Source: Geminocystis sp. GBBB08
GTDB lineage: Bacteria; Cyanobacteriota; Cyanobacteriia; Cyanobacteriales; Cyanobacteriaceae
Length of the DNA: 42,977 nt
Reading direction: 5' to 3'
Assembly (NCBI RefSeq): GCF_016743215.1
Contig: NZ_VRZC01000012.1
Coordinates: 1 to 42,977 of the forward strand
The notes under the pieces are model-generated. The model was not told the origin of the DNA and ran no database searches. It saw nothing but the letters and a program-made list of their open reading frames with translations. The stretch's first letter is position 1, and every line of letters begins with the position of its first letter. The position numbers and the translations under genes were made by a program. Below are positions 7,455 to 40,613 of this stretch, piece after piece.

Positions 7455-7535
7455 TATCATTAAACAAACTACAGTTTTAAGTAGGTGTTTGTTAGGTTGC
7501 ACTTCGTTTAACGACAACCTACTCGTTATTTTTCT
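7455..7535. repeat. Palindromic repeat / possible bidirectional terminator between murF and the kinase gene
   Basis: Inverted motifs GTAGGT and ACCTAC, with a nested TAGGTTG...CAACCTA, bracket a TTCGTTTAACGA core. This resembles the widespread cyanobacterial intergenic palindrome of the type GTAGGTTG...AACGAAACC. It lies between two convergent genes, where a hairpin could stop transcription from both sides. The right part overlaps the 3' end of the kinase gene. Confidence 0.4.
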
Positions 7536-10500
7536 GTTTTAAAATCACTAAAGTTATATCATCAAATATTTTTTGATTACCTATAAATTCTCTTACATTA
7601 TTAATGATTTTTTCTTGAATTTCTTGAGCAGATTTGTGACGATTCTGTAAGGCTATTTGACATAAATTATCTAACCCATATTGTTGTTGATTAAGATTCT
7701 CAGCTTCGGTAATACCATCGCTATATAAAATTACTAAATCTTCAGGATTCAATTTAATTTTTATTTCGTTAATAAAATGGGCTATTTCACTTTCTAAACC
7801 GAGAGGAAAACCTAAATCAAGAGTATCTATTTTTTCTATGTTTCCATCAGCACGAATAAGAATTATTTCTTCATGTTGTCCACTAATTTTAAGTATATTA
7901 TTAGTATAATCTAACACGGTTAAGGTCATATTTTTATCAGATCCCATTCGTTGTAAATTATCATATAAAGTTTGATTTAAAATGTCTAAAAATCGCACAG
8001 CATCGGTTTCATTAGTCTTTTGTAAAGTGCGGATTGCTGTTTGTGCCATTAACATTAAAACTCCACTTTCTAAACCATGGCCGGTAACGTCTCCAATGGT
8101 TATTTTAACTCCACTTTCACTTTTTAAAACATCATAATAATCGCCGCCTACTTCTTCAACTGCTGACATATATCCGGCTATATCTAATTCGGAAATAGCT
8201 TCTAATTCTTCAGATTTAGGTAAAACCATTTCTTGCAATTTTTTGGCAACATTTAACTCTGCACTTAATCTTAAATTTTCAATTTTCAATTTTTCATTTA
8301 AAGTAATAATTTCTTGATTTGCACTAGCTAATTGGGCGGTTCTTTCCTTGACTTTATCTTCTAAAGTTTGGTATAATATAGCATTTTCAATGGCGATAGA
8401 TGCTTGTCCTGATAAGAGTTTTATTACTTCTAATCTATCTTCGGTAAAAGCTGATGTAGTAAGGTTATTTTCTAGGTAAACAATTCCTATTAATTTACCT
8501 TGATTTAGTAAAGGAGTACATAAAATTGATTTAGGTTTTTTGGCGATAATATAAGAATCATTAATAAAATTTCCTTGAGAATTAGCATCATTTAAAACAA
8601 GATCTTCTTTGACTCTAGCGACGTAATTAATGAGGGTGACAGGTAATTTATTTTCCATGGGTAAAGATTGTAAAGCAGTAATATTGTCATTATCCATAAA
8701 TCCTTCGGCTTCAATTAATAATTGATGATTATTTTCTAAGATTAAATAACCTAATTGTGCCCCCGCATTTTGAATAATAATTTTCATCAGAGAAACTAAC
8801 AATTTTTCTAATACTATTTCCCCTGAAATTGCTTGACTAGCTTTCATTACTGTTGCTATATCTAAGTTAGAATGAGAATCAGAAGCTGTTGCGTTGGTTG
8901 TAATTGTACGATGTGATTTTTTGCTGTGAGTTGCCAAAAATTGGGGATATTCTTTTTCTAAATGTTTAACTTTTGTTATCGCCCCCCAACGCAAATAACA
9001 ATAATGTGCTTCTACTAAATATACATTAGCTATTTTTTCTTTTCCCCAATGGAGGTAAAATTTACCCGCTAATTCATTGGCTAAGGCTTCTTCATTGAGA
9101 TATTCATATTCTTTGGCACAGGCGATGGCACTATCATATAATTCTATACATTGGAGTTTATCCCCCAAAATGCGAGTTTTTTCTGCTTCTACTAAATACC
9201 ATTTATGTAAATAATTCATCGGTGCATTATCAGCCCACATTTTGAGCCGATTTTGCAAATTTTCAATTTGTTGCTGATGATATTGCTTTTCGCTATCAGA
9301 AGCAATTTCTAGGGCTAATAAGTGAGTTAAAGCGGCAAAAAAAACAAATTGAGGTAAAGGATTGTGTCCACAAATACTATAAATATACTTTTTACCTTCT
9401 AATACATCTTCCATTGCTTCAGAAATATAACCAAATAAATAGTGAAGGTAGAGTTTACTATAGTAATGAATACTTAAACCGAGTAAATTATTCGTTTGAG
9501 TAAAGAATAAAAGTGCTTGTTTCTCATGATAAATCTCTCCATCAAGATTCCATGGGGTTTGTGAATCTCTTAAATTAGTTACAGTTTGTAAATTAGCAAG
9601 GGTATATTGTCTAGTTCCCTCTGCTTTAATAGAATTAGTAAATTCGATCGCCCTTTTAAAATCCGTTTCTAATTGGCTTAATTCTTTTCCCGCCGCTTTT
9701 TCTAAACGTAAGATGTTAGTGAAAGCATAACCTGCAAATTCCAAATCACCATATTCTATACCACTTTTATAGGCATCTTTTAGGGGAGGGATACAATCGT
9801 TATGATGTTTTTTCCATAGGGTGACAAGAGCATGAACATTATTTAAAATAATAGCTCGACATCGTTGATTATTTTGTTTTTCTAATAAATTGGTGGCAAC
9901 CATTCCATATTGATAGCCTCGAGAGAATTGATCTACACCCGGACTACATAAAATTAAAGCATAACAAGCATAAGAATTAGGAGTTTCATCGCTATGCCCA
10001 TATTTCAAAGAAATTAAAACCCCTTGACAACTAATTAACGGAAATAAATTAGGATTACAAAAATAGCTTAAAGGAGTCATACGAGTTAAAATGCGCATTG
10101 CTGATAACATTGCTTTATCTGTCATTTTTGGCAAATCAATTAATTCTTGTAAGGAATAATGATCAAGTTGAGTTTGAGTTCGTTCTTGCCAAGCTATAAT
10201 AATATTTTCGTCAGAATTTTCTGGCAATTCAATTCCTAATAATTGTAAACAAAATAAACCTAATTTAATGCCATCTAAAAATCGATTCATGACTGAATAA
10301 GCCTGAAGTTTGGTTTCATAAACACCAATTTTATCTAAGAGATTATTACTATTATTAATTACACTCTCTCCTAAAGTTTCCATCTGAGAAAAATCTCCTT
10401 TTAAATAACTAACTTCTGTGGCTTCTAAATATAAAGCTAAAGTTAAATCATATTCAGTTTGCCAACTATTTTGAGGAAGCAATTCTATTCCTATGTTTAA

Positions 10501-12798
10501 ATATTCCATAGCAGCAATATGGGCGATGGATTTTTTGGCTTTTTGCCCAGCAATCAAATTTAATTGTGCTAATTGATTTTTTTGATTTTGTTCAGTAATT
10601 AATTCTCTACTTAAATTAAAATGTTCTACAATATCAAATATTTTTTCATCTCGCTCTTTTTCTGAATAATTTTCTAGCAATATTTGTCCAATTTTTAGAT
10701 GAAAAGCCGATTTTTCCTTTTCTGAAATTAAGGAATAAGCCGCTTGTTGAATTCGATCATGAATAAACTTATATTGAGGTAAAATATAATCTGTTTTTAT
10801 TAAAGCTAAATCAACCTCTTCTCTACTCTCTAAAAAAGTTACTAAACCCTCGGCTACCGCAAATTCTAAAATATCAACAGTTTTCGTCAAAGATTGATTA
10901 ATAATTACCCCTAAAACTTGCACATTAAATTGATTACCAATACAAGATGCTATTTTTAATAATTCTTGTGTATCTTGTGGTAATTTTTGAATAATAGTTG
11001 TCATAAATTCAACAACGTTATCAGTAAATCCTCGCTCTTTAATTTGGCTTAAATCCCATCGCCAACGAAGATATTGATAATCAAATTGTAAAAATTTTTC
11101 TGTATAAATAGATTTAAGAAATTGATTAACAAAAAAAGGATTTCCACCAGTTTTAATCTCTACTAATTCTGCTAAATCTTGAACTTCTGTGAAAGGATAA
11201 TTAATAGAATCTCCTATTAATTGAGCAATATCAGATAAATTTAAAGGAGAAAGAAAAACTTGATTAATAATAGCTCCTGTTTTAGCGATTTCATCTAAAG
11301 TTAACATTAAAGGATGGGATAAAAAAACCTCATTATCTCGATAAGCACCAATGACAAATAAACCTGATAAATTTTGTGTGATTAACATTTGTAATAATTT
11401 CAAAGAAGCATTATCAGCCCACTGTAAATCATCTAAAAATATGACTAAAGGATGTTGAGGTTGCGTAAAAACGTTGATAAATTTTTGAAAAACTAAATTA
11501 AAACGATTTTGTGCTTCTATTGCCCCTAATTCAATTAAATCTGGTTGTTTGCCAATAATTAATTCTATTTCAGGAATAACTTCTGCAATAACTTTACCAT
11601 TTATACCTAATACAGCTAATAATTTATCTTGCCATTGTTTAAGTTTATTTTCTGTTTCTGTTAACAATTGTTTGATTAATCCTCGAAAAGCATTTACTAT
11701 GGCACTATAGGGAATATTTCGCTGAAATTGATCAAATTTACCACTAAGAAAATAACCTTTTTTTGCTGAAATTGGTTTATAAATTTCTTTAACTAGTGCA
11801 GTTTTTCCAATACCTGAATATCCGCCAATTAACATCAATTCAGCACCATTTACTCCCTCAAAAGCCTTTAATAAAATTTCGATTTCTGTCTCCCTACCAT
11901 ATAATTTTTGGGAAATTTGAAACTTATCAGAAATATCATGAGTAGCCAATTCAAAATCTTCTATTTTTCCCGTAGTCTGTAATCTCTGTAAACAATTTTC
12001 TAAATCGGCTTTTAAACCCCATGCACTTTGATAACGATCTTCCACATTTTTGGCCATTAATTTCATGATAATATTAGAAATAATTGGCGGAATTAAAGAA
12101 TTTATTGCGGTAGGAAATAAAGGAAGTTTAGCAATATGACAATGCACTAATTCTAAATCATCTTCAGTATTAAAAGGCAACTTTCCTGTGAACATTTCAT
12201 AAAAAGTAACCCCTAAAGAATAAAAATCAGTACGATAATCGATACTGCAATTCATTCTCCCTGTTTGTTCAGGAGAAATATATGCTAAAGTTCCTTCTAA
12301 GATATTAGGACTTTTAAAAGTAGGATTTTCTCTAGTTAATTTTGTGGAAATACCGAAATCAATTATTTTTACTTCTTCTGTTTCTAGATTAATAACAATA
12401 TTAGAAGGATTGATGTCTTTATGAATAATATTTGTCTTGTGAATTTGCCCTAAACTGGCAGTAACTTTAATGGCAATTGATAGTAACTTTTCTAAATTAA
12501 ATGACTGTTTTTCTGCTAAGTTTTTCCATGATTTACCACCAAAATCTTCTAAAACAATTAATAAACTATTCTGATATTTTTCTAAACTATAGGCTTTAAT
12601 TACACCATCAATATTAAGAGAATTAGTTAATTGATATTCTTGACGATAACGAATCAATTCATTAGGGGTAGGATAGTCTTGTTTTAAAACTTTTAAAATT
12701 ACTTTTTTTTGATCAATTTTACCAACAGCATTATAAACTTCTGAGTTGACACTGTCATAAATCTTACTTATTATTTGGTAATCAGGTAAATTGATCAT
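7519..12798 (-). CDS. Giant Ser/Thr kinase - AAA ATPase - GAF - PP2C (SpoIIE-type) phosphatase
   Basis: 1759 residues. Domains in order: (1) Hanks-type kinase at ~1-270, with a VAIK-type lysine in VILKVLK, catalytic loop HKDINPSN (~125), DFG (~147) and SPEQ; (2) AAA_16-type ATPase at ~290-560, with Walker A GGYSGIGKT (~327) and Walker B VIFLDDLQWAD (~455); (3) a long alpha-helical, TPR-like region at ~600-1280; (4) GAF sensor at ~1310-1460; (5) a short coiled coil at ~1465-1515; (6) PP2C/SpoIIE phosphatase at ~1530-1755, with metal-binding motifs GGDYYD, IGDVTGHG, YSDGITEAE and FDDIT. All catalytic residues I looked for are present. Kinase-ATPase-GAF proteins (PknK/HstK type) are common in cyanobacteria, where the C-terminus is more usually a histidine kinase or GGDEF domain. 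As the last gene of the GGDEF-HATPase-STAS operon it probably supplies the phosphatase, and perhaps an upstream kinase input, for the STAS protein. Confidence 0.9.
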   Translation of the reverse strand: MINLPDYQIISKIYDSVNSEVYNAVGKIDQKKVILKVLKQDYPTPNELIRYRQEYQLTNSLNIDGVIKAYSLEKYQNSLLIVLEDFGGKSWKNLAEKQSFNLEKLLSIAIKVTASLGQIHKTNIIHKDINPSNIVINLETEEVKIIDFGISTKLTRENPTFKSPNILEGTLAYISPEQTGRMNCSIDYRTDFYSLGVTFYEMFTGKLPFNTEDDLELVHCHIAKLPLFPTAINSLIPPIISNIIMKLMAKNVEDRYQSAWGLKADLENCLQRLQTTGKIEDFELATHDISDKFQISQKLYGRETEIEILLKAFEGVNGAELMLIGGYSGIGKTALVKEIYKPISAKKGYFLSGKFDQFQRNIPYSAIVNAFRGLIKQLLTETENKLKQWQDKLLAVLGINGKVIAEVIPEIELIIGKQPDLIELGAIEAQNRFNLVFQKFINVFTQPQHPLVIFLDDLQWADNASLKLLQMLITQNLSGLFVIGAYRDNEVFLSHPLMLTLDEIAKTGAIINQVFLSPLNLSDIAQLIGDSINYPFTEVQDLAELVEIKTGGNPFFVNQFLKSIYTEKFLQFDYQYLRWRWDLSQIKERGFTDNVVEFMTTIIQKLPQDTQELLKIASCIGNQFNVQVLGVIINQSLTKTVDILEFAVAEGLVTFLESREEVDLALIKTDYILPQYKFIHDRIQQAAYSLISEKEKSAFHLKIGQILLENYSEKERDEKIFDIVEHFNLSRELITEQNQKNQLAQLNLIAGQKAKKSIAHIAAMEYLNIGIELLPQNSWQTEYDLTLALYLEATEVSYLKGDFSQMETLGESVINNSNNLLDKIGVYETKLQAYSVMNRFLDGIKLGLFCLQLLGIELPENSDENIIIAWQERTQTQLDHYSLQELIDLPKMTDKAMLSAMRILTRMTPLSYFCNPNLFPLISCQGVLISLKYGHSDETPNSYACYALILCSPGVDQFSRGYQYGMVATNLLEKQNNQRCRAIILNNVHALVTLWKKHHNDCIPPLKDAYKSGIEYGDLEFAGYAFTNILRLEKAAGKELSQLETDFKRAIEFTNSIKAEGTRQYTLANLQTVTNLRDSQTPWNLDGEIYHEKQALLFFTQTNNLLGLSIHYYSKLYLHYLFGYISEAMEDVLEGKKYIYSICGHNPLPQFVFFAALTHLLALEIASDSEKQYHQQQIENLQNRLKMWADNAPMNYLHKWYLVEAEKTRILGDKLQCIELYDSAIACAKEYEYLNEEALANELAGKFYLHWGKEKIANVYLVEAHYCYLRWGAITKVKHLEKEYPQFLATHSKKSHRTITTNATASDSHSNLDIATVMKASQAISGEIVLEKLLVSLMKIIIQNAGAQLGYLILENNHQLLIEAEGFMDNDNITALQSLPMENKLPVTLINYVARVKEDLVLNDANSQGNFINDSYIIAKKPKSILCTPLLNQGKLIGIVYLENNLTTSAFTEDRLEVIKLLSGQASIAIENAILYQTLEDKVKERTAQLASANQEIITLNEKLKIENLRLSAELNVAKKLQEMVLPKSEELEAISELDIAGYMSAVEEVGGDYYDVLKSESGVKITIGDVTGHGLESGVLMLMAQTAIRTLQKTNETDAVRFLDILNQTLYDNLQRMGSDKNMTLTVLDYTNNILKISGQHEEIILIRADGNIEKIDTLDLGFPLGLESEIAHFINEIKIKLNPEDLVILYSDGITEAENLNQQQYGLDNLCQIALQNRHKSAQEIQEKIINNVREFIGNQKIFDDITLVILKQKNNE

Positions 12799-23523: not shown

Positions 23524-23817
23524 ATGGATTATCGGATAAATGAACGTTTTGATCAAGTAGAGAATCGTTTTAACCAAGTAAAGAATCGCTTTAACCAAGT
23601 GGAAACTCGTTTTAATCAAATAGATGAAAAGATAACTGAGCTAAGAATTAATCAAACAGAAGTACAAACTCGGTTAAATGACTGGAAACCTTCCATAGAT
23701 AAAACTGCTGACTTATCGGAAAAAATAGGAGAGTTAAGAAATTGGAAACAGATTGCAATCGTACTTTTAACGGGTTTTATTACTTCAGTATTTTGGATTT
23801 TCCGAGATAAAATTTAA
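23524..23817 (+). CDS. Small tail-anchored coiled-coil protein with 7-residue repeats
   Basis: 97 residues. Residues ~7-38 consist of a seven-residue unit of type RFNQVEN repeated about four times, encoded by 21-bp direct repeats (23551-23634). A hydrophobic segment (about 76-92) just before the C-terminal RDKI forms a tail anchor. The repeat is in register with a coiled coil, so a membrane-attached rod or oligomer is likely. It lies 126 bp upstream of mfd on the same strand. Small proteins of this plan are frequent near cyanobacterial genes; the function is unknown. Confidence 0.55.
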   Translation: MDYRINERFDQVENRFNQVKNRFNQVETRFNQIDEKITELRINQTEVQTRLNDWKPSIDKTADLSEKIGELRNWKQIAIVLLTGFITSVFWIFRDKI

Positions 23818-29101: not shown

Positions 29102-30568
29102 ATGTTTTCAACCAGTATCCCTAATAAATGGCAACCTATTATCAAAGAATTAGAAGTAATATTAGGTAAAAATGGCATAATCAAACGTAAAGACGAACTT
29201 TTAACCTACGAATGTGATGGTTTAACCCAATATCGTCAACGCCCAGCATTAGTAACATTACCGAAAACTACCGAAGAAGTAGCCGAAATTGTCAAAATAT
29301 GTAATAAATACGAAATAAAATGGGTTGCTAGAGGTGCTGGTACAGGTTTATCAGGTGGGGCGTTACCCGTAGAAGATTGCTTGTTAATCGTTACCGCTAG
29401 AATGCGTCAAATTTTGGATGTTGACTATAATAATCAAAGAATTGTGGTGCAACCCGGTATTATTAATAATTGGGTAACACAGGCAGTTAATGGTGCAGGA
29501 TTTTATTATGCACCTGATCCTTCTAGTCAAATAATATGTTCTATTGGTGGTAATGTAGCCGAAAATTCTGGAGGTGTACACTGTTTAAAATATGGTACAA
29601 CTACTAATCACGTTTTAGGCTTAACTATAGTCACTGCCGAAGGTGATATATTGAAAATAGGGGGTAAAGTGCCAGAAATGCCCGGATTTGACTTAACAGG
29701 CTTATTTGTAGGCTCAGAAGGCACTCTAGGTATTGCAACGGAGATTACCTTAAAAATTCTCAAAACTCCTGATGCTATCTGTGTTGTTTTAGCAGATTTT
29801 AAGAGTATTGAAGAAGCAGGAAGTGCTGTAGCCGAGATTATTAGTGCTGGGATTATTCCGGCAGGTATGGAGATAATGGACAATTTTAGTATCAATGCGG
29901 TAGAAGATGTTGTCGCTACTAATTGTTATCCAAGGGATGCCCAAGCCATTTTATTGGTAGAATTAGACGGTTTACAGGTAGAGGTTGATACTAACAAGAA
30001 AAAAGTAGATGCTATTTGTCGGGCTTGTGGTGCAAGAAATGTTACTTCAGCTTCTGATGTGCCTACTCGTTTAAAATTGTGGAAAGGAAGAAAGGCAGCT
30101 TTTGCGGCTATGGGTAAAATTAGTCCCGATTATTTTGTACAAGATGGAGTCGTACCTCGATCAAAATTATCTCAAGTGTTAGGGGAAATAAATGCTTTAG
30201 GTGAACAATTTGGCTATCGTATTGCTAACGTTTTTCATGCGGGAGATGGTAACTTACATCCTCTGATTTTATATGATAATGCCGTTGAGGGCTCTTTTGC
30301 AAAAGTAGAAGAATTAGGGGGAGAAATTCTTAAGTTATGTGTGAGAGTAGGAGGTAGTATTTCAGGAGAGCATGGTATTGGTAGTGATAAAAAATGTTAT
30401 ATGAGTGATATGTTTACGGAAACTGATTTAGAAACCATGCAATATGTGAGAAGCAGTTTTAACCCTAAAGGCTTGGCAAATCCTGATAAAATTTTCCCTA
30501 CCCCTCGCACTTGTGGGGAGGCGGCAAATGCAAAACAAGTAGAATATAAAAACATACAGGCATTTTAG
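29102..30568 (+). CDS. glcD: Glycolate oxidase/dehydrogenase FAD subunit
   Basis: 488 residues. An N-terminal FAD-binding type 4 (PCMH) domain carries ARGAGTGLSGGALP (about 78-91), DPSSQIICSIGGNVAENSGG and FVGSEGTLGIATEI. The C-terminal FAD-oxidase domain carries FHAGDGNLHP (about 378), SISGEHGIGSDK and the DPDKIFP-type ending (NPDKIFP). This is the GlcD pattern, the flavin subunit oxidising glycolate to glyoxylate in photorespiration. D-lactate dehydrogenases of the same family cannot be wholly excluded by eye. glcE and glcF are not adjacent. The stop codon runs directly into AATCAGG tandem repeats. Confidence 0.9.
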   Translation: MFSTSIPNKWQPIIKELEVILGKNGIIKRKDELLTYECDGLTQYRQRPALVTLPKTTEEVAEIVKICNKYEIKWVARGAGTGLSGGALPVEDCLLIVTARMRQILDVDYNNQRIVVQPGIINNWVTQAVNGAGFYYAPDPSSQIICSIGGNVAENSGGVHCLKYGTTTNHVLGLTIVTAEGDILKIGGKVPEMPGFDLTGLFVGSEGTLGIATEITLKILKTPDAICVVLADFKSIEEAGSAVAEIISAGIIPAGMEIMDNFSINAVEDVVATNCYPRDAQAILLVELDGLQVEVDTNKKKVDAICRACGARNVTSASDVPTRLKLWKGRKAAFAAMGKISPDYFVQDGVVPRSKLSQVLGEINALGEQFGYRIANVFHAGDGNLHPLILYDNAVEGSFAKVEELGGEILKLCVRVGGSISGEHGIGSDKKCYMSDMFTETDLETMQYVRSSFNPKGLANPDKIFPTPRTCGEAANAKQVEYKNIQAF

Positions 30569-30576
30569 GAATTTAG

Positions 30577-30604
30577 AATCAGGAATCAGGAATCAGGAAT
30601 CAGG
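30577..30604. repeat. AATCAGG heptamer tandem repeat (x4)
   Basis: Four exact tandem copies of AATCAGG start 9 bp after the glcD stop and merge into the left arm of the inverted repeat at 30603-30636. A related TTCTAAATTCCTCA repeat lies at the other arm (about 31771-31800). Confidence 0.85.
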
Positions 30605-30636
30605 AATGAGAAATTACCAGCAGGATGCCTGTTTTA
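30603..30636 (+). repeat. Left arm of a 34-bp inverted repeat flanking the 303-aa gene
   Basis: Matches the reverse complement of 31734-31767 at 33 of 34 positions; the core is AATTACCAGCAGGATGCC. The similarity continues outward into GAATTTAGAAT-type repeats on both sides. The arms lie about 1.1 kb apart and enclose one complete gene. Confidence 0.8.
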
Positions 30637-30661: not shown

Positions 30662-31573
30662 ATGATAGAAATTCCTATCGCTTTATTATCGTTTATCTTT
30701 GCTAAGATTAATAAATTTTTGATCGGTAATTTATATACTATCTACCTTAGTTTAAACCAAAAAAAATCAAAACAGTGGCGAGTTATTGATAATGAATTAG
30801 TATCTTCTAACCTCAATTTAGGAGTATTAATGACAAAAGCTCCTCGTTGGAATACCCATGCTATTATTGGTACATTAGGGCCTTTTTCTGTGAATAATTC
30901 CTTGACAATTGACTTAAAATCTGCTAATAATTCTTGTCAATCTTGGATCGCAATTTTTTATAATTTTCCTAAGTATGAAACGATAACTACCATTGAGTCT
31001 AATCAAGTTAATTCCCAAGATGATTGGCATTCAATAAAGTTAAAAAAAGGAAAATATTCCATCGGTTTGAGGTATTATAATTATGATCAAAAATTAGTCT
31101 TACCAGCTATCAAAGTTGACGGAGAAAATTTTACTTCAACCTTAGAAATACCTAGTAATAGTAATAATTTTTATAATTATTTAATCAACCGTAAAAACTT
31201 TTATTTTTTATTCCTTCACTATTATATTTATACGATTTTTAAGTATAGAAAATACCTACCAGAATCTTTTATCAAAAATGAGTTTTTACCTGTTGGTGCT
31301 ACCGATACTAAATTTTACTATGATTGTTTAGAGAAAGGGGAATTATTAAAGATAAATGTAGATGAATTTACCTTAAAAAATTATGATATTTATGTAACTA
31401 TTTATGATAGGTGTAGCTTACCAGTTAGTTGGTTTCAAATGACTAAACTTGAAGAAAAAAGTACCCCGTTAACAAATAAAGGATACTATTTAATTAGGGT
31501 GCGTCGCAATGAGAATTTAGAGAATAAATTTGCTGATTTAAACATTAATTTACAGCAGTTTTCAAATTACTAA
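30662..31573 (+). CDS. Hypothetical protein, 303 aa, between inverted repeats
   Basis: A complete ORF starting ATG at 30662. The N-terminus has a hydrophobic segment (about 3-30, IPIALLSFIFAKI...LIGNLYTIYLSL). Two beta-rich parts follow (about 40-160 and 215-300), separated by a very aromatic stretch rich in Tyr and Phe (about 170-205, FLFLHYYIYTIFKY), possibly a second membrane or interfacial segment. No catalytic motif was recognised. It is convergent with the olefin synthase gene, whose stop is 208 bp away. It could be an accessory membrane protein for hydrocarbon metabolism, but only position suggests that. Confidence 0.65.
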   Translation: MIEIPIALLSFIFAKINKFLIGNLYTIYLSLNQKKSKQWRVIDNELVSSNLNLGVLMTKAPRWNTHAIIGTLGPFSVNNSLTIDLKSANNSCQSWIAIFYNFPKYETITTIESNQVNSQDDWHSIKLKKGKYSIGLRYYNYDQKLVLPAIKVDGENFTSTLEIPSNSNNFYNYLINRKNFYFLFLHYYIYTIFKYRKYLPESFIKNEFLPVGATDTKFYYDCLEKGELLKINVDEFTLKNYDIYVTIYDRCSLPVSWFQMTKLEEKSTPLTNKGYYLIRVRRNENLENKFADLNINLQQFSNY

Positions 31574-31733: not shown

Positions 31734-31767
31734 TAAAATAGGCATCCTGCTGGTAATTTCTCATTCC
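31734..31767 (-). repeat. Right arm of the 34-bp inverted repeat
   Basis: Reverse-complement partner of 30603-30636 (33 of 34). Two copies of a 14-bp unit CCTCATTCTAAATT-like follow immediately. The second of these contains the stop codon and last residues of the olefin synthase gene, transcribed from the other strand. Confidence 0.8.
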
Positions 31768-31781
31768 TCATTCTAAATTCC

Positions 31782-34700
31782 TCATTCTAAATTCCTAATT
31801 ATTTCCGCTAAATTAATTGGTTTTTCTAAGGGTAAATTATGTCCTCCTTCAATAGTAAATATATCAGCTTGAGGCATTGCTAATTTTTGTGCCTCTAAAT
31901 CTTCCTGACGATTAAAATTACTGCGATCGCCATATATAATGGTTAAAGGTATATTGATTTGTGATAGTAACTGTAAATATTGTGCTCGATGAATGCTATT
32001 AACGATACCAGCGCGAGTAGTTAAAAGGGGTGCATAGGAGAAAGTAACTCCATTGATTACAGCACGAGTAGTACGTTTGGCTAAATTGAAAGCGAAGTCG
32101 AAGGTTAAATCAGGGTTGGCGGTTTGCAGACGTTTAGCAACGGTTTCCACATCGGGGAAAATCGGCAAAGAAGGAGGTGATAATAGATAGTCTAATTGAC
32201 TGGTGATATTGCTTAAATCTTGATAGTTATTGTTTTCTACAGGTAAAACTGGCTCTACTAATACTAAATTACTAACTTTCGGCGATCGCATATTAGTGAA
32301 AACGGCGGTAATAATTGAGCCGAAAGAATGTCCTACTAATGTAAAAGGTTTGTCAGTTAATTTAGTGGTTAAAGAGTCTAAATCGGCAACAAAATCTAGT
32401 AAATTATAAGAGCAACCTTGACTAAGATGATCAGATTTTCCATGACCTCGTAAATCAGGAGCGATGATATAATAATTTTGTTTAGCAAGAGATTGAGCAA
32501 CTTTTTCCCAAGCATAACCTTGTTCTAAGATACCATGTATTAGGACGATGGGGGGATTTGCGGGATTTCCCCATAGACAAACACAGAGATTTAACCCTCC
32601 GACATTGATAAATTCTTCTGTCATTTTTACCGTTGTTGCTTCGTGAGGTAGTTGATAGTTAAAAGATTTTGCCAGATTGACAGTGATAGGATGAAGAAAA
32701 ATAGGCAACTGAATTTTACGCCAATGATTAGCTAATTTAGGATCAATGTGACTGCGGGTGTTAAAATTAGGATCACCTACTGACATAGATTTACTACGCA
32801 CACCATCTGTCATTCTGTCACCCTCGTAAGGATTTAAGACTGATTCAGAAAAAGGCACTTCTAAAAAGTCACACATTTCCTGCATAATTTTTTCCGGTTG
32901 TGTCACTAAGTCTTCATAAAAAACTTGATAGATTTTAGATGGGTTTAATCCACGAGTAAAATCGAGAATGTTTTGATTGGTTTGATGCCAAATAGACTCA
33001 CCAATTTCGTAGGGGTTGCCGTCACTTAACCCTAGTAATTTATCCATGCGTAAACGGGAAAAAGATTCTACCACTGAATAAGGATGACGAATTAAATGTA
33101 TATATTTTGCTTGGGAAAACATTTTTTCACTATGGTAAAGAATTTCTTTTGCCATGCCATAGGTAGGAGACTTATCTACCAAAAGACGATTACCGCTTAA
33201 TTGTTGCAAAATTTTATATAACTCAGAGATAGATAAATTTTCCTTCACCCATTGATTAACTAAATCTTCACTTTCTTGGGCACAAATTCCTTTTAAATCC
33301 ATAATAGTACGAATTAATCCCTCTCCGAGATGAGAAGTCTCTAATTGTTTTTGTCTTTCCTGCATATTCACAAAAGGTAATAAATGCAATTCTGGAGGAG
33401 AGACTAAATTCCCATGCCCTGCTAACATGACTCTTAAGAGAGTTGATCCAGAGCGCGGACTTGATAAAATAAAAGCAATAGGCTTTGGATTAATAGTCGA
33501 TAGTGGATAGTTAATAGTAGATAGTGAAGGATTAGCAACAGAAAATGACTTATTTTCCGCTTCGAGTTTCCCTGTCTTTCTATCTTCAAGTCTTTTTGTC
33601 TTTGAGTCTTCTTGTTTTTGAGTCTCTTTGCCTTCGAGTCTTCCTATTTCTAAAAGGTGAGTTGAAGAAAATTCCTCACTTAAATAACTAGCTAATACTG
33701 AAATTCGAGGGCGCTGATAAAATTCACGAGGGTATAATATCAATTGTAAGTCAGTTTTTAGGTAGTTAATTGTTTCCATTATCATCAAAGAATCCATACC
33801 TAAATCTAAAAGACTTTCATCAGGATTAATTTCCTTCGGGTTGAGATGTAAAATATTGGCAATCGCTTTTGTGAGATAATCAACTAATAAAATCTCTCTT
33901 TCGTTATTATCAGCTTGAGTTAATTCTGTAAAGAGATTGTTAACGCCTTGATTAGTGAAAGTTTTGTCATCAAAATCAGCGACAATTTCTTTTAAGTAAG
34001 GATAAGTCAATAAATTAGGGAATTTTTGGGCTAATTTTTGCCAATTAATCTTCATTACTCCCCATTGCCATGAAGAAGAGTTAATCAAGTCTCCTAATAA
34101 GTTTATCCCTTCATGGACATTAATTAAGTCAATGCCGTCAGCAGAAAGAGAATGTTGTTTTAATTCTGTCATACCAACATCAAAGGCACCCCAATTTATT
34201 GTTAAAGCAGGAAGATTTAAACGATGACGATAACTAGCAAAACTATCTAAATAACCATTTGCCGCACCATAATTACTTTGTCCTGCTGAACCTAACAAAG
34301 AAGCGACAGAAGAAAACATCACAAAAAAGTCTAAGGATAAATCAAGAGAAAGGAGATGTAAATTCCATGCGCCTTGAATTTTTCCTGCCATAACTGAAGA
34401 TAACTTTTCGGCAGTAAGAGTAGTTAAGATTCCATCAGCTAAAACTCCGGCGCTGTGAATGATACCTTTGAGAGGCGGGAAAAATGAGGAAGAAATTTGT
34501 TGAAAAATTCCTCTTAAATTTTCTAAGTTTGAGACATCAACATTAGCCACCAAAATTTTTATTCCTTGTTTCTGCCAAGAATCTAATTGCCGTTGAATGG
34601 TTATGGATGGTTGACGACGAGATATTAAGATTAAATTTTTTGCCCCTTGACTAATTAACCAACGGGCGCATTGAATACCTAGGGCACCTAATCCACCAGT

Positions 34701-37700
34701 AATTAAATAACTTGATTCATTATTAATAGAAACTTGAGGGGATTTTTCTCTTAGAGTATAAGATTCTTGAGGATTTCTGATCTTAGGTATGATGTTATAT
34801 GAATATCTTTGCGTCTTTGCGTCTTTGCGAGAAATAATCATATCTTGATTAAGCAACCCCAGTTGTTGATTATCAACAGGAGAAAATTGTTTTTGCAAAC
34901 GAGGATAGTAAATATTTTCTTCTCGAATGGCACTCATATTTTCAAGGTTATCATTATCGTCATTAATTTTTGTTAATAATAACGATAACTGAAAAGAATT
35001 TTCCTGATTATCAATGTCAATTATACCCCCCCAATATTCGGGATGCTCAAGGTTGATAACTTTTCCTATTCCCCATAAACTACCACCTTGAGGATTTATT
35101 TCTTCATCGGTAGTAACTAATTGAGAGTTTTGAGTCACTAACCAAATTTTACTTTTATATGCAGTCATTACCAAACTTTGTAGTAAATAGATGACGGGAA
35201 GACAGCCTAAAAAATTAGTTTCCTCTAAATCTAAAGTTGCTGTTGGCGTTAATGTAGATAAACCCCAAAAATAAATTATTTTGTCGATAGGTTGCTCAAT
35301 ATTTTGCCATAAATTTTGATAATCTTGAGGATTACTCGGATTTAACCAATAATTGTTACCTTCTTGTTTATATTCTTTTTCCCGATAGACTAAATAAACT
35401 TGATTTCCTTGAAAGATTAATTGACTAGCTAACGTTTCTTCTTGAGATGATTTGTTAGCGAAAATTAAGTAACTATATTTAGTGTGATTATTAACGTCTA
35501 ACTTTTCTGCTTTTAACCAATGAAGTTTATACAACCCATCGAAAGATAATTTTTGATTGTCTTCCTTGTTATCTTCATTATCTCCTAACCAATAACGCTG
35601 ATTTTGCCAAGGATAATTTGGTAGTTGTACTTTTTTTAATTGAGGATAATCTTGATAAAAACTTACCCAATTAATTTTAATGTTTAAAGTGTATAACTCG
35701 GCTAAACTTGTCAGTAAATTTTGCCAGTCTGATGCCTTATTCCTCAAACTAGGTAAATAAATATTGTCGTCATTATTTAAAGAATGTTTTGCCATACCTA
35801 AGAGGATAGGCTTCGCCCCAATTTCTAATAAGACTTGATAATTTTCCTGTTGTAGATATGCCAAACTTTGATTAAATCTCACAGGTTTTATGATATGCTC
35901 AACCCAATATTGTGCCGTAGCAATTTCTTGTTGATTAACATTCCCCGTGACATTAGAAATAATAGGCAACTTTGGTAACTTATAGTCAACAGTAAGGGCG
36001 ATTTCTCTAAATTCAGCTAAGATTGACTCCATCAAAAAAGAATGAAACCCGTGGGATACGGTTAATTTTTTCGTCTTGATATTATTTTTTCTTGCTTCAT
36101 TTTCAATAACATCTAAGATTTGCTGATAACCAGAGATGACTATATTATTATCACCATTGATAACAGAAATTTCAACTTGATCATTAAACTTGTCAATTAA
36201 TTGATTAACTTTTTCTTCATTAGTCAATAAACATAACATTCCACCATCAAGGGGTAACTTTTGAATTAATTTTCCTCGATAAGCAATTAACTTTAAAGCG
36301 TCTTCTAAACTAAAAATTTCAGCTATCGTTGCCGCCACATATTCTCCTACACTATGCCCCATAACTATAGCCGGTTTTATGCCCCATGTTAACCACAATT
36401 TTGCTAAGGCATATTCAATGACAAATAAAGCTGGTTGAGTATAAATTGTCTGATTTAATAAGTTTTCATTTTCGCCATCAAATAAAATTTCTGTTATTGG
36501 TTTGTCTAGATAGTTATTTAAAATTTGCTCACAATAATCGATGGTATTTTTAAAAGTCGGGGAAGTTTGATATAACTCATAGCCCATTTTACTATACTGT
36601 GATCCTTGCCCGGTAAATAAAAAAGCAATTTGTTGATTATAGTTAACTATCCTATTTTGACGGTGTTTTAACTGCGAAAAAATTTCTTCTCGATTCTTAC
36701 CTACTAATGCTAACTTATATTGAAAACTCGATCTCCCAACATTAGCAGTAAAACAAATATCAGCAAAATTAACCTCAGATTTTTCTTGTAAATAAGATTG
36801 ATAACGAATAATTAAATCATCTAAAGCTGTCTCACTTTGTGCCGATAATGTCAGAATATGATAACTCGGATTAATAGTTGAAAATTGAGAGTTGAGAGTT
36901 GATAATGAGGAATTAGCAAAAGAAAATGACTGACTTTCGTCTCCTGATTTTTGTTTATTACCATCTCCTTTTTCTTTTTTCCTGTCTGTTGACGATAGAA
37001 GAGAATTAGTTTCACCTTCATTTTTGTTAACAACTTCTTTTTTTTCTTCTCCTTTTGTATTCACCCATTGTAAGGAGGGATTAAAGGAAGTTTGTCTTTT
37101 GTCTTGATTATCAAGGGGGATTAAGGGAGGTAATTTATCACCAATAATAACATGAGCATTTGTCCCTCCAAAACCAAATGAGCTTATTCCTGCATAACGA
37201 GGTTGAGTGGAAGATTCCCAAGAAATAGATTTTGTGGCGATTTTAACTCGACTTTTGTCTAAATTAATATAAGGATTAAGTTTAGTAAAATTAATCGTAG
37301 GAGGGATAATATTATGTTTTAATGCCAAAACTGTCTTTATTAATCCTGCTATTCCGGCGGCCGCTTCTAAATGTCCGATGTTTGTTTTTGCAGAACCTAC
37401 ATAAGTAAAAAATTCCTGCCCACCACTAGAGTATAATAACTCACTGAGGGAATTAAGTTCAATCGGATCGCCTAATGCTGTACCAGTGCCATGAGCTTCG
37501 ATATAATTAATTTTATCAGCATTAATCCCTGAATTTTGCCATGCCGATTGTATCACTTTTTGTTGTGCTTTTCCCGACGGTGCAGTTAATCCATTACTTC
37601 GCCCGTCTTGATTAATCGCCGAACCATAAATCACTGCTAATATATTATCATCATTGGCGATCGCCTGAGCAAGAGGTTTCAAAATAATAACACCACAACC

Positions 37701-40544
37701 TTCTCCTCTAACATAACCATCAGCATCAGCAGAGAAAGTTTTACACTTGCCATTTTCTGCCATCATCCCCGCCTTTTGAAAAGTTTCGGTTAATTCAGGA
37801 GAGAGAATAAGATTGACACCACCGACAATGGCTTGACTACACTCACAATTTTTCAAACTATTAACTGCTAAATGTACCGCAACCAGAGAAGATGAACAAG
37901 CCGTATCGAAACTTAAAGAAGGACCAAGTAAATTATAGTTATAAGATATTCTATTAGCGGAAATAGAAGCCGCATTACCAGTGCCGGTATAAACGTTTAC
38001 ATCCCAACCATTTTTCACTTGTAACTGAGCATAATCCGAACTACTGATACCGATAAAAACTCCAGTATCACTACCAGATAAACTTTCCACAGTGATGTTA
38101 GCATTTTCTAAGGCTTCATGGGTTACTTGTAGTAATATTCTTTGTTGCGGATCAATATTTACAGCTTCTCTAGGGGATATTTCAAAAAAAAGAGGATCGA
38201 ATTGGTCATAATTATTAATATAACCACCAAGATAGGGCAAGTTTTGACGATTACTTTGGCTAATAGCATCCTTCCCTTGAGATAATAGTTGCCAATATTC
38301 CTCACAATTATTGGCTTTGGGAAAACGACAAGCCATGCCAATAATAGCAATTTTGGTTTCATTTAAGGAAAATTGACTCTGACTATTATTAATAGGGGTA
38401 ACGGTAGTTTTTTCCTCCGCTAAATATTCTGATAATTGGGCAATATTAGGATAATCATAGGCAAGAGTAGGAGATAAACGAGAATCTAACCAATCTTCCA
38501 ATTCTGCTGTTAATCTTACAACTTGCACGGAATCCAAACCATAATTAATAAAAGGTTGATAGATGTCAATTTGTTGAGGTTTAACCCCAATGCGTTGCGC
38601 GATATTTTCCTTTAACCAATTTTGAATAGTTAACCGTTGAGAGTTGAAACTTGAGAATTGGTAGTTAATTTTCTCCTCATTTCCTTCTCTCCTTATCTCG
38701 TTATCTTCTTTTCTTCTTATCTCCCCATTTCCTATTTCTGTCATTTCTTCATCACCGAGTCTTTTCGTTTCCTCTGGTGATAGCTGATGATTAATATCCC
38801 AGTGGGCGACAACTTGTAAAGTGTTATCTAAAAATCCCTGACGACAAGCATAACGGGCAATTTTGCCACTAGAAGTTTTGGGAATACTGCCAGTTTTTAA
38901 CAAGACAATACTATAGACTTGCAACTCATGATTTTCGGCGATAATTTGACGAATTTTTGCAAAAATCTCCTGCTTTAAACTAGCATCTTGGTTGATTTTG
39001 GTCAAAAAAGTGCGCTTAATTTCAAAAATTACTACTAATTGCTCTTCATCATTAACATCAATGGCAAAAGCCGCACCACTTTCAGAGTTAATACCTCTAT
39101 GGCAACTAGCGACACTTTCTTCTATATCTTGAGGATAATGATTTCTACCTCGAATGATAATTAAATCCTTGAGTCTTCCTGTCACAAATAACTCTCCCTC
39201 ACTCAAAAAACCTAAATCTCCTGTGCGTAAAAAAGTGCCTTTTCCTTCCTTGGTATAAGCCTGAAAAGTATTTTTAGTAGCTTCTTCTCTCTGCCAATAA
39301 CCCTGAGTGACACTCGCACCCTTTACCCAAATTTCTCCTACTTCATTCTCTAAACATTCTTCTAAACTATCAGGATTGACAATCAAACACTGCAAATCTT
39401 GAGCAATTTTACCACTACTAACCAATACTTGACTATCAGGGGAATTTTCCTCCACAACAGTGATGGTATTTTTAGTTAATGCTTCTGCTGACAAGGTTTT
39501 GATAACCGGAGGGTGATTTTTTTCTGCCCCCGAAACAATTAAGGTAGTCTCTGCCATGCCGTAACAAGGGTAAAAAGCCTCCCGTTTAAAGCCACAATCG
39601 GCGAAATATTGGCTAAATTTGGCAATAGTCTCCGCCCTTACGGGCTCTGCACCACTAAACGCCAAATTCCAACTGCTTAAGTCTAAATCCGCCTTTTGTT
39701 TTTCGGTAACAGAATTGACACACATTTCATAAGCAAAATTTGGACCGCCCGTAGTAGTTATTCTATACTTAGAAATAGCTCTCAGCCAACGAATAGGCCG
39801 TTGTAAGAAGCTCACGGGGGGGATCATAATGGTGGTGATGGCAGAATAAATTGGCTGTAAAATACCCCCGATTAAGCCCATATCATGATAAGGGGGAAGC
39901 CATGAGCAACCAATACTTGTATTATCATTTTCAAAACAACTGCTAATTAAATGAGAATTGTGAATCAAGTTACCATGACTTACCATAACTCCTTTAGGCG
40001 TACCGGTCGAACCACTGGTATATTGTAAAAAAGCGAGATTATCTTCTTGAATATAAGGGGATTGTTGCCAATGGTGTTCTAATTCTAGGGGAATATTATC
40101 TGTCGGGATACAAGTAATATTGCTATTTTTAGTTAATTTTTGTTCAATTTTTTGCTTTAAAGATTCTGTAGTGAGGGCAAAAACTGCACCGGCATCCTTA
40201 ATAATAGTCTCTAAACGAGTAAAAGATCGATTTTGACGGGGAGGATAGGCAGGGGTTGCGATGATTCCAGCATATAAACACCCTAAAAAAGCCGTAATAA
40301 ATTCTAAACCGGGTTGATACAATAATAATGCCCTTTCCCCTTCCCCTTTGTTACCTAATAAATTAGTGGCAACCTTAGAAAGATTATGGGCGATGGCTTT
40401 TGCTTGATTATCTAATTGTTGATAGGTTAAACTTTCTGTCTGTGCTTCACCGTCGCCTAAGAAAGTAAATATAACCTTGTCAGGTTGTGAAAGCGCGCGT
40501 TCTTGAAGTAGATTAACGAAGTTAGAATGTTTAACGTATCCCAT
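31782..40544 (-). CDS. ols: Modular olefin synthase: FAAL-ACP-KS-AT-KR-ACP-ST-TE
   Basis: About 2920 residues from ATG 40544 (MGYVKHSNFV; the frame stays open to 40613 but that part looks non-coding). Domains, numbered from this start: fatty acyl-AMP ligase ~5-600 (TSGSTGTPKG ~180, SFLQRPIRWL, LRTGDLGFL); ACP1 with GLDSVQ (~670); ketosynthase with Cys ~882 in DTACSSS plus EAHGTGT and NIGHLEAAAG; acyltransferase with GHSVGEY (~1397); ketoreductase with TGGLGALG (~1951); ACP2 with GMDSLM (~2251); PAPS sulfotransferase with SPRSGSTLL (~2361); alpha/beta hydrolase thioesterase with GHSFGS (~2740) and GGHN. This is the domain order of cyanobacterial Ols, which extends a fatty acid by two carbons, then sulfates and decarboxylates it to a terminal alkene. 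Three linkers carry low-complexity, heptamer-repeat-encoded inserts. The C-terminal residues RNLE and the stop lie in a dispersed repeat. Confidence 0.92.
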   Translation of the reverse strand: MGYVKHSNFVNLLQERALSQPDKVIFTFLGDGEAQTESLTYQQLDNQAKAIAHNLSKVATNLLGNKGEGERALLLYQPGLEFITAFLGCLYAGIIATPAYPPRQNRSFTRLETIIKDAGAVFALTTESLKQKIEQKLTKNSNITCIPTDNIPLELEHHWQQSPYIQEDNLAFLQYTSGSTGTPKGVMVSHGNLIHNSHLISSCFENDNTSIGCSWLPPYHDMGLIGGILQPIYSAITTIMIPPVSFLQRPIRWLRAISKYRITTTGGPNFAYEMCVNSVTEKQKADLDLSSWNLAFSGAEPVRAETIAKFSQYFADCGFKREAFYPCYGMAETTLIVSGAEKNHPPVIKTLSAEALTKNTITVVEENSPDSQVLVSSGKIAQDLQCLIVNPDSLEECLENEVGEIWVKGASVTQGYWQREEATKNTFQAYTKEGKGTFLRTGDLGFLSEGELFVTGRLKDLIIIRGRNHYPQDIEESVASCHRGINSESGAAFAIDVNDEEQLVVIFEIKRTFLTKINQDASLKQEIFAKIRQIIAENHELQVYSIVLLKTGSIPKTSSGKIARYACRQGFLDNTLQVVAHWDINHQLSPEETKRLGDEEMTEIGNGEIRRKEDNEIRREGNEEKINYQFSSFNSQRLTIQNWLKENIAQRIGVKPQQIDIYQPFINYGLDSVQVVRLTAELEDWLDSRLSPTLAYDYPNIAQLSEYLAEEKTTVTPINNSQSQFSLNETKIAIIGMACRFPKANNCEEYWQLLSQGKDAISQSNRQNLPYLGGYINNYDQFDPLFFEISPREAVNIDPQQRILLQVTHEALENANITVESLSGSDTGVFIGISSSDYAQLQVKNGWDVNVYTGTGNAASISANRISYNYNLLGPSLSFDTACSSSLVAVHLAVNSLKNCECSQAIVGGVNLILSPELTETFQKAGMMAENGKCKTFSADADGYVRGEGCGVIILKPLAQAIANDDNILAVIYGSAINQDGRSNGLTAPSGKAQQKVIQSAWQNSGINADKINYIEAHGTGTALGDPIELNSLSELLYSSGGQEFFTYVGSAKTNIGHLEAAAGIAGLIKTVLALKHNIIPPTINFTKLNPYINLDKSRVKIATKSISWESSTQPRYAGISSFGFGGTNAHVIIGDKLPPLIPLDNQDKRQTSFNPSLQWVNTKGEEKKEVVNKNEGETNSLLSSTDRKKEKGDGNKQKSGDESQSFSFANSSLSTLNSQFSTINPSYHILTLSAQSETALDDLIIRYQSYLQEKSEVNFADICFTANVGRSSFQYKLALVGKNREEIFSQLKHRQNRIVNYNQQIAFLFTGQGSQYSKMGYELYQTSPTFKNTIDYCEQILNNYLDKPITEILFDGENENLLNQTIYTQPALFVIEYALAKLWLTWGIKPAIVMGHSVGEYVAATIAEIFSLEDALKLIAYRGKLIQKLPLDGGMLCLLTNEEKVNQLIDKFNDQVEISVINGDNNIVISGYQQILDVIENEARKNNIKTKKLTVSHGFHSFLMESILAEFREIALTVDYKLPKLPIISNVTGNVNQQEIATAQYWVEHIIKPVRFNQSLAYLQQENYQVLLEIGAKPILLGMAKHSLNNDDNIYLPSLRNKASDWQNLLTSLAELYTLNIKINWVSFYQDYPQLKKVQLPNYPWQNQRYWLGDNEDNKEDNQKLSFDGLYKLHWLKAEKLDVNNHTKYSYLIFANKSSQEETLASQLIFQGNQVYLVYREKEYKQEGNNYWLNPSNPQDYQNLWQNIEQPIDKIIYFWGLSTLTPTATLDLEETNFLGCLPVIYLLQSLVMTAYKSKIWLVTQNSQLVTTDEEINPQGGSLWGIGKVINLEHPEYWGGIIDIDNQENSFQLSLLLTKINDDNDNLENMSAIREENIYYPRLQKQFSPVDNQQLGLLNQDMIISRKDAKTQRYSYNIIPKIRNPQESYTLREKSPQVSINNESSYLITGGLGALGIQCARWLISQGAKNLILISRRQPSITIQRQLDSWQKQGIKILVANVDVSNLENLRGIFQQISSSFFPPLKGIIHSAGVLADGILTTLTAEKLSSVMAGKIQGAWNLHLLSLDLSLDFFVMFSSVASLLGSAGQSNYGAANGYLDSFASYRHRLNLPALTINWGAFDVGMTELKQHSLSADGIDLINVHEGINLLGDLINSSSWQWGVMKINWQKLAQKFPNLLTYPYLKEIVADFDDKTFTNQGVNNLFTELTQADNNEREILLVDYLTKAIANILHLNPKEINPDESLLDLGMDSLMIMETINYLKTDLQLILYPREFYQRPRISVLASYLSEEFSSTHLLEIGRLEGKETQKQEDSKTKRLEDRKTGKLEAENKSFSVANPSLSTINYPLSTINPKPIAFILSSPRSGSTLLRVMLAGHGNLVSPPELHLLPFVNMQERQKQLETSHLGEGLIRTIMDLKGICAQESEDLVNQWVKENLSISELYKILQQLSGNRLLVDKSPTYGMAKEILYHSEKMFSQAKYIHLIRHPYSVVESFSRLRMDKLLGLSDGNPYEIGESIWHQTNQNILDFTRGLNPSKIYQVFYEDLVTQPEKIMQEMCDFLEVPFSESVLNPYEGDRMTDGVRSKSMSVGDPNFNTRSHIDPKLANHWRKIQLPIFLHPITVNLAKSFNYQLPHEATTVKMTEEFINVGGLNLCVCLWGNPANPPIVLIHGILEQGYAWEKVAQSLAKQNYYIIAPDLRGHGKSDHLSQGCSYNLLDFVADLDSLTTKLTDKPFTLVGHSFGSIITAVFTNMRSPKVSNLVLVEPVLPVENNNYQDLSNITSQLDYLLSPPSLPIFPDVETVAKRLQTANPDLTFDFAFNLAKRTTRAVINGVTFSYAPLLTTRAGIVNSIHRAQYLQLLSQINIPLTIIYGDRSNFNRQEDLEAQKLAMPQADIFTIEGGHNLPLEKPINLAEIIRNLE
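33491..33525. repeat. Five NNATAGT heptamers inside the olefin synthase ACP2-ST linker
   Basis: On the plus strand: TAATAGT, CGATAGT, GGATAGT, TAATAGT, AGATAGT in unbroken tandem. They encode part of the linker read as PSLSTINYPLSTINP. The adjacent ~130 bp (to about 33655) is also repetitive (GTCTTTGAGTCTTCTTG type) and encodes a Lys/Glu/Asp/Thr-rich stretch. Confidence 0.85.
36872..36906. repeat. Five heptamers inside the olefin synthase KS-AT linker
   Basis: On the plus strand: TAATAGT, TGAAAAT, TGAGAGT, TGAGAGT, TGATAAT. They encode the linker piece SSLSTLNSQFSTINP, nearly the same peptide as in the ACP2-ST linker. Both are followed on the plus strand by a similar GAAAATGACT segment. Confidence 0.8.
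38630..38671. repeat. Six TTNNNNN heptamers inside the olefin synthase ACP1 linker
   Basis: On the plus strand: TTAACCG, TTGAGAG, TTGAAAC, TTGAGAA, TTGGTAG, TTAATTT in tandem. They encode the NYQFSSFNSQRLTI part of the FAAL-ACP1 linker, next to a charged repeat (EIRRKEDNEIRREGNEEK). Confidence 0.75.
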
Positions 40545-40613
40545 GTATATCGAATTAACGTAATTATTAAGTATCTTTCTAATTATTAAACAATCGTTAA
40601 CAATTAACAACAA

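Follow-up and report, generated by a model that had tools for sequence, protein, structure and literature searches.

Families of 7- and 8-bp tandem repeats that multiply between cyanobacterial genes very likely also enter the interdomain linkers of the olefin synthase gene ols, and those of NRPS and PKS genes, where they are filtered by reading frame, stop codons and hydrophilicity and are quickly replaced. The ols gene analyzed here lies in a 42,977-bp stretch of DNA (hereafter the window) from the genome denoted G000; G008 and G010 are its congeners (genus g1), and G001 is in another genus (g2). The strongest evidence for colonization is provided by G008 and by a survey of Ols loci, not by the window itself.

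Repeat arrays in the linkers of the window ols gene

Judged from its sequence, the ols gene of the window appears to be an intact olefin synthase gene, and by Pfam its product has the FAAL-ACP-KS-AT-KR-ACP-ST-TE order of Ols type I PKSs (Table 1). Its start codon is TTG, and the conserved MGYVKHSNF is the likelier start. In a structure model, aa 1163-1248 of the KS-AT linker have pLDDT values under 50 and hardly any secondary structure; this segment is flanked by confident domains and is predicted to be disordered. Between G008 and G010 the Ols domains show a dN/dS of about 0.1, and the folded domains are under purifying selection in this pair.

The initial annotation had reported in-frame period-7 repeats in three Ols linkers. 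When the whole 8.8-kb gene was scanned for period-7 self-similarity, the three highest-ranking positions were 33491-33525, 36871-36905 and 38626-38660, encoding approximately aa 2363-2375, 1236-1248 and 648-662, and each sits between folded domains. Period-7 matches in the third amounted to 21/35 (those in the first two, 21/28 each, are in Table 1). The observed periodicity was reached, in the same order, by 0/2000, 1/2000 and 6% of synonymous-codon shuffles, and by 0/60, 0/60 and 7/60 of whole-gene codon shuffles. The ACP2-ST and KS-AT heptamer arrays, both of them degenerate, are secure; taken alone, the stretch before ACP1 is marginal. Charged stretches had also been described as adjoining the arrays, and this understates two of them, which are period-8 repeats as well, strong upstream of ACP1 and weak in the ACP2-ST linker.

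Table 1. Coordinates of ols, its domains and its repeat arrays in the window (nucleotide positions unless marked aa).
Feature	Position	Strand	Location or product	Evidence
ols	31782-40613	(-)	type I PKS olefin synthase, 2943 aa, FAAL-ACP1-KS-AT-(KR-like)-KR-ACP2-ST-TE	Pfam and orthologue alignment (G010/G008/G001)
FAAL/AMP-binding	aa 36-602		Ols	Pfam
ACP1	aa 666-731		Ols	Pfam
KS	aa 754-1169		Ols	Pfam
KS-AT linker domain	aa 1252-1315		Ols	Pfam
AT	aa 1331-1636		Ols	Pfam
KR-like region	aa 1716-1873		Ols	Pfam
KR	aa 1968-2144		Ols	Pfam
ACP2	aa 2243-2317		Ols	Pfam
ST	aa 2378-2590		Ols	Pfam
TE	aa 2687-2932		Ols	Pfam
Degenerate heptamer array ACTATTA/ACTATCC/ACTATCG	33491-33525	(-)	ACP2-ST linker, peptide SLSTINYPLSTIN	21/28 at period 7, synonymous-shuffle p<0.0005; TRF
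Heptamer array CAACTCT	36872-36906	(-)	KS-AT linker, peptide SLSTLNSQFSTIN	21/28 at period 7, p=0.0005
Weak heptamer stretch	38630-38671	(-)	before ACP1, peptide INYQFSSFNSQRLT	period-7 rank 3 in gene; synonymous-shuffle p=0.06
Purine-rich octamer array	38672-38733	(-)	FAAL-ACP1 linker, charged peptide EIGNGEIRRKEDNEIRREGNEE	39/54 at period 8, 0 shuffles reach; TRF
Degenerate octamer stretch	33574-33643	(-)	ACP2-ST linker, charged peptide	35/62 at period 8, synonymous-shuffle p=0.011
Perfect octamer CGCAAAGA x3	34806-34829	(-)	linker before KR, peptide RKDAKTQR	TRF, period scan
Heptamer/14-mer array	31754-31800	(+)	spans ols stop codon, encodes last Ols residues	TRF
71-bp stretch, probable intragenic copy	36868-36938	(-)		80% identical to 33487-33557

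The ACP2/ST and KS/AT linkers were said to encode nearly the same peptide, and indeed they read ANPSLSTINYPLSTINP and ANSSLSTLNSQFSTINP, their DNA sharing 71 bp at 80% identity. This match has an E value of 8.5e-12, while the next genomic match (1.5e-5) is limited to the heptamers. As a whole-genome search found no comparable third copy of the 71-bp stretch, one of the two was probably copied from the other within ols.

Other arrays of the gene differ in how far they are represented elsewhere. The KR-linker octamer array occurs in seven exact copies in the whole window genome; there were none in the two g2 genomes searched, and in the alignment the array is missing from this linker of the G008 and G010 Ols. 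The 14-mers of the array across the stop codon had 76 matches in a 0.43-Mb sample of their own genome. The likeness of the linker repeats to the intergenic heptamers, which the initial annotation had asserted, holds for the period and not for the exact KS/AT unit: CAACTCT forms no other array in the 4.1-Mb genome, so that it was rejected as an amplified genomic family, the array being private to ols. GGCATCCTGCTGGTAATTTC, found beside the heptamers, was likewise rejected as a genome-wide element, a 0.44-Mb sample having only the two window copies.

Heptamer arrays in the genomes

Array densities in coding and noncoding DNA were estimated from 0.40-0.44-Mb samples per genome with genes called by a simple ORF rule, which makes some of the assignments approximate. 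Noncoding DNA of the g1 genomes had 1156 (G000), 1094 (G008) and 337 (G010) heptamer arrays per Mb, versus 64 in G001, and coding DNA of the same samples had 0-6 per Mb, with a Markov null of 0. In 0.44 Mb of G000, 84 arrays were noncoding and two coding; as with STRRs and heptameric SSRs, these are tandem arrays of several 7-bp units, found at numerous places in the genome and mainly between genes, the linker arrays being the exception. Of the strong 7/8-mer arrays in the sampled coding DNA of G000, most reside in ols.

Other repeats were seen in the window. Positions 30566-30630 and 31738-31805 form an inverted heptamer-rich pair with a common GAATGAGAAATTACCAGCAGGATGCCT, which flanks the gene at 30662-31573 and has no further copy in the sampled 0.44 Mb. 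A noncoding 21-bp tandem repeat (CGTTTTAACCAAGTAGAGAAT x3.8) is found at 23545-23624, upstream of the 1189-aa ORF at 23944, and a heptamer array (8267-8299) lies within a 1759-aa ORF (7519-12798), in a K/E/N-rich region (KLKIENLRL).

Repeats in the linkers of congeners and of other Ols

The Ols of G008 and G010 align well with that of the window in the domains, and the linkers differ. In G008 the KS/AT linker contains GGAGAAT x7 followed by a CTATTCA array, the octamer GACAGGAA precedes ACP1 and the octamer TCCCCCTC is found in ACP2/ST; arrays there can be perfect and as long as 50 bp. In G010 a single weak stretch of heptamers precedes ACP1, and no linker arrays were found in the four sister-genus (g2) Ols scored, one of them partial. 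GGAGAAT x3 had 274 overlapping matches in the G008 genome and none in G000, G010, G001 and G004, and the G008 octamer AAGACAGG had 70 matches in the G008 sample versus 0-1 in those of its relatives; hence at least two G008 linkers hold repeats that were amplified in G008 only.

To survey the family, we used an alignment query that retrieved 80 named loci from GTDB genomes; with the family members and the window these made 86 distinct loci, a non-independent set in which split Ols and related ST-TE PKSs are also present. At a score of at least 13 and a period of 7 or 8, the linkers (103 kb) contained 43 arrays and the folded domains (468 kb) three, that is 0.417 versus 0.006 per kb (binomial p=9e-29), and the other ORFs at these loci, taken as a control, contained four arrays in 487 kb (0.008/kb). 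Periods 7/14 and 8/16 account for most of the excess. At this threshold some three quarters of the 86 loci lacked a linker array. Among the others, filamentous cyanobacterium ESFC-1 (L209) has a single linker in which several different heptamers together span about 150 bp, Symploca SIO2C1 (L207) has six arrays, and Prochloraceae MO_167.B51 (L189) is another example. On a tree of 82 loci, 21 of them positive, array presence changed state at least 18 times, and it was associated with repeat density in the flanking DNA (Fisher p=2e-5; median p=0.03 for independent pairs). Linkers with arrays were clearly longer only at KS/AT (p=0.018). Similar heptamer peptides, NPKSKIQNPKLD and KPKSKIQNPELD, were also seen in two distant lineages (L187 and L242) at the same AT-internal site, about 145 aa into the domain.

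In seven genomes picked for their array-bearing Ols, ORFs of at least 800 aa in NRPS regions had 15 arrays in 263 kb (0.057/kb), with recurrent positions in KS-AT linkers and right ahead of YKTGD, an adenylation motif. In L291, L292, L298 and L303 it is heptamer arrays that immediately precede the YKTGD of the NRPS adenylation domain, at what is probably a site of insertion on the surface. In Xenococcus sp. MO_188.B8 a palindromic element, GTAGGGGCGAAGGGCNATTCGCCC, is present in two linkers of the Ols (L179:4970-5077 and L179:9845-9988) and in dozens of copies across the genome. Given these NRPS arrays and palindromic elements, neither ols nor heptamers are special, and megasynthase linkers and surface loops look like general landing sites. 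That repeats colonize tolerant linkers, as initially proposed, thus gains support beyond the original claim from the survey, the G008-private units and the NRPS genes.

Turnover between sister species

Pairs of loci whose domains are 87-92% identical carry different repeats at the same linker. In L203 and L207 the ACP2/ST linkers have TTNNKQQ-type and PIPNSQF-type repeats, respectively, while a TTNNQQP-type array before ACP1 is common to both and differs in length; linkers also differ within each of the pairs L180/L186, L181/L184 and G010/G008. Such differences between sisters at one and the same linker speak strongly against selection for a fixed sequence there. Linkers conserved among distant Ols, which the initial annotation would have taken as a sign of selection on the peptide, were absent, and those of sister species already differ.

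This turnover bears on the idea that a specific function of the linker peptides is under selection, the DNA periodicity being a by-product. Such an idea would account for the nearly identical peptides of two window linkers and for the strong hydrophilicity of linker peptides, but it is improbable, being largely refuted by the unrelated linker peptides of the sisters. Moreover, synonymous shuffles fell short of the periodicity seen in the first two window arrays, and other Ols manage with KS/AT linkers as short as 13-17 aa, so that only composition is kept, not sequence. The Ols of Picosynechococcus sp. PCC 7117 (L195), for example, resembles that of the window in domain order and in its ST-TE end, whereas it has no array and a KS/AT linker of 17 aa, compared with 91 aa in the window.

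Reading frame and hydrophilicity of linker arrays

Wherever a linker with an array lies inside a continuous protein, the reading frame is kept (33 of 33); the single exception, L216, concerns the ACP1/KS junction, at which many of these Ols are divided between two genes. As units of 7 and 8 bp are not divisible by 3, such arrays can tolerate net changes only in steps of 21 or 24 bp. The initial annotation had ascribed changes in linker length to slippage, which would apply only with this restriction, since a single-unit step would break the frame; sisters differ mostly by replacement with another repeat family. The same indivisibility, together with the length and perfection that arrays can attain (50 bp in G008), would suit contingency switches, with Ols going off and on by phase variation whenever an array gains or loses a unit. 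We consider this a shade less probable still than the specific function, as none of the 33 linkers is out of frame and the domain-internal frame breaks that we found (L075, L194, L222) are not at arrays.

The peptides encoded by linker arrays had a mean Kyte-Doolittle value of -1.55, compared with 0.07 when every open frame of the intergenic arrays was taken (p=8e-11), and where the antisense was also open the sense strand was the more hydrophilic in 29/33. Selection appears to act on the chemistry of the peptides and not on their sequence.

The ols genes of two sister-genus genomes look damaged: the G004 Ols has a frameshift in the FAAL (L075:3124-3133), and in G003 the N-terminal half of the Ols was not found at the locus (L078), which has a long octamer array further upstream (L078:9188-9368). 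These would fit an ols decaying to a pseudogene and accumulating repeats, but neither carries linker arrays, while the array-bearing g1 genes are intact and dN/dS is low between G008 and G010, so that decay is very improbable. Chance low complexity in an AT-rich gene (GC 33%), to which the third array (p=0.06) would lend itself, is the least credible, being already refuted by the shuffles for the first two arrays and by the excess at particular periods in the survey.

Discussion

The reading that we favor, invasion of linkers by intergenic repeat families, retains part of the initial interpretation. Arrays would enter a linker through template switching to, or recombination with, copies at other sites, and would survive there if the frame is kept, the strand read has no stops and the peptide is hydrophilic. 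They might then grow and shrink by slippage in net steps of 21 or 24 bp, probably at little cost to catalysis, for which linker arrays would be near-neutral. The linkers of each lineage would thus tend to be occupied by repeats that its own genome has amplified and be replaced fast, with varying length, as the domains stay under purifying selection.

A broader proposition, which we put forward tentatively and hold at slightly less than even, is that the repeat families current in the host genome, and not selection on linker sequence, largely set the sequence and length of megasynthase linkers (Ols, NRPS, PKS) through continual invasion, filtering by frame and hydrophilicity, and replacement. 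If so, repeat content supplies new linkers in megasynthase evolution. Ols provides a concrete, repeated and species-resolved case of intergenic repeats turned into protein sequence with a visible filter of frame, stops and hydrophilicity. It also offers those who engineer PKS/NRPS a naturally occurring collection of linkers that are apparently tolerated, and a warning that the sequence of a megasynthase linker may mirror the repeats of the genome and not function.

Our literature searches, which covered subscription journals only partly, found no paper on tandem repeats in Ols, PKS or NRPS linkers. Cyanobacterial heptamer repeats are known to be mainly intergenic and depleted in genes (PMC4692102; PMC4679880), examples being GGGGA(C/T)T in Nostoc PCC 7120 (PMC4692102) and the TAACTGA repeats (PMC4679880). 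The arrays studied here are like these STRRs and heptameric SSRs in their 7-bp unit, their many dispersed and mostly intergenic arrays, their depletion in coding DNA and their differences between species; unlike them, the Ols arrays lie in frame in megasynthase linkers, recur at the same linkers across many lineages and show, in the strand that is read, a bias towards hydrophilic peptides. Simple-sequence contingency loci share units not divisible by 3 within an ORF, whereas the Ols arrays are mid-gene and always in frame among the genomes examined. Rickettsia palindromic elements are 'selfish' in-frame coding insertions that lie in unstructured protein segments (PMC2996958); the Ols arrays, too, are genomic repeats inserted in frame in unstructured segments, but those of the window are simple 7/8-bp tandem units and not palindromes of fixed length.
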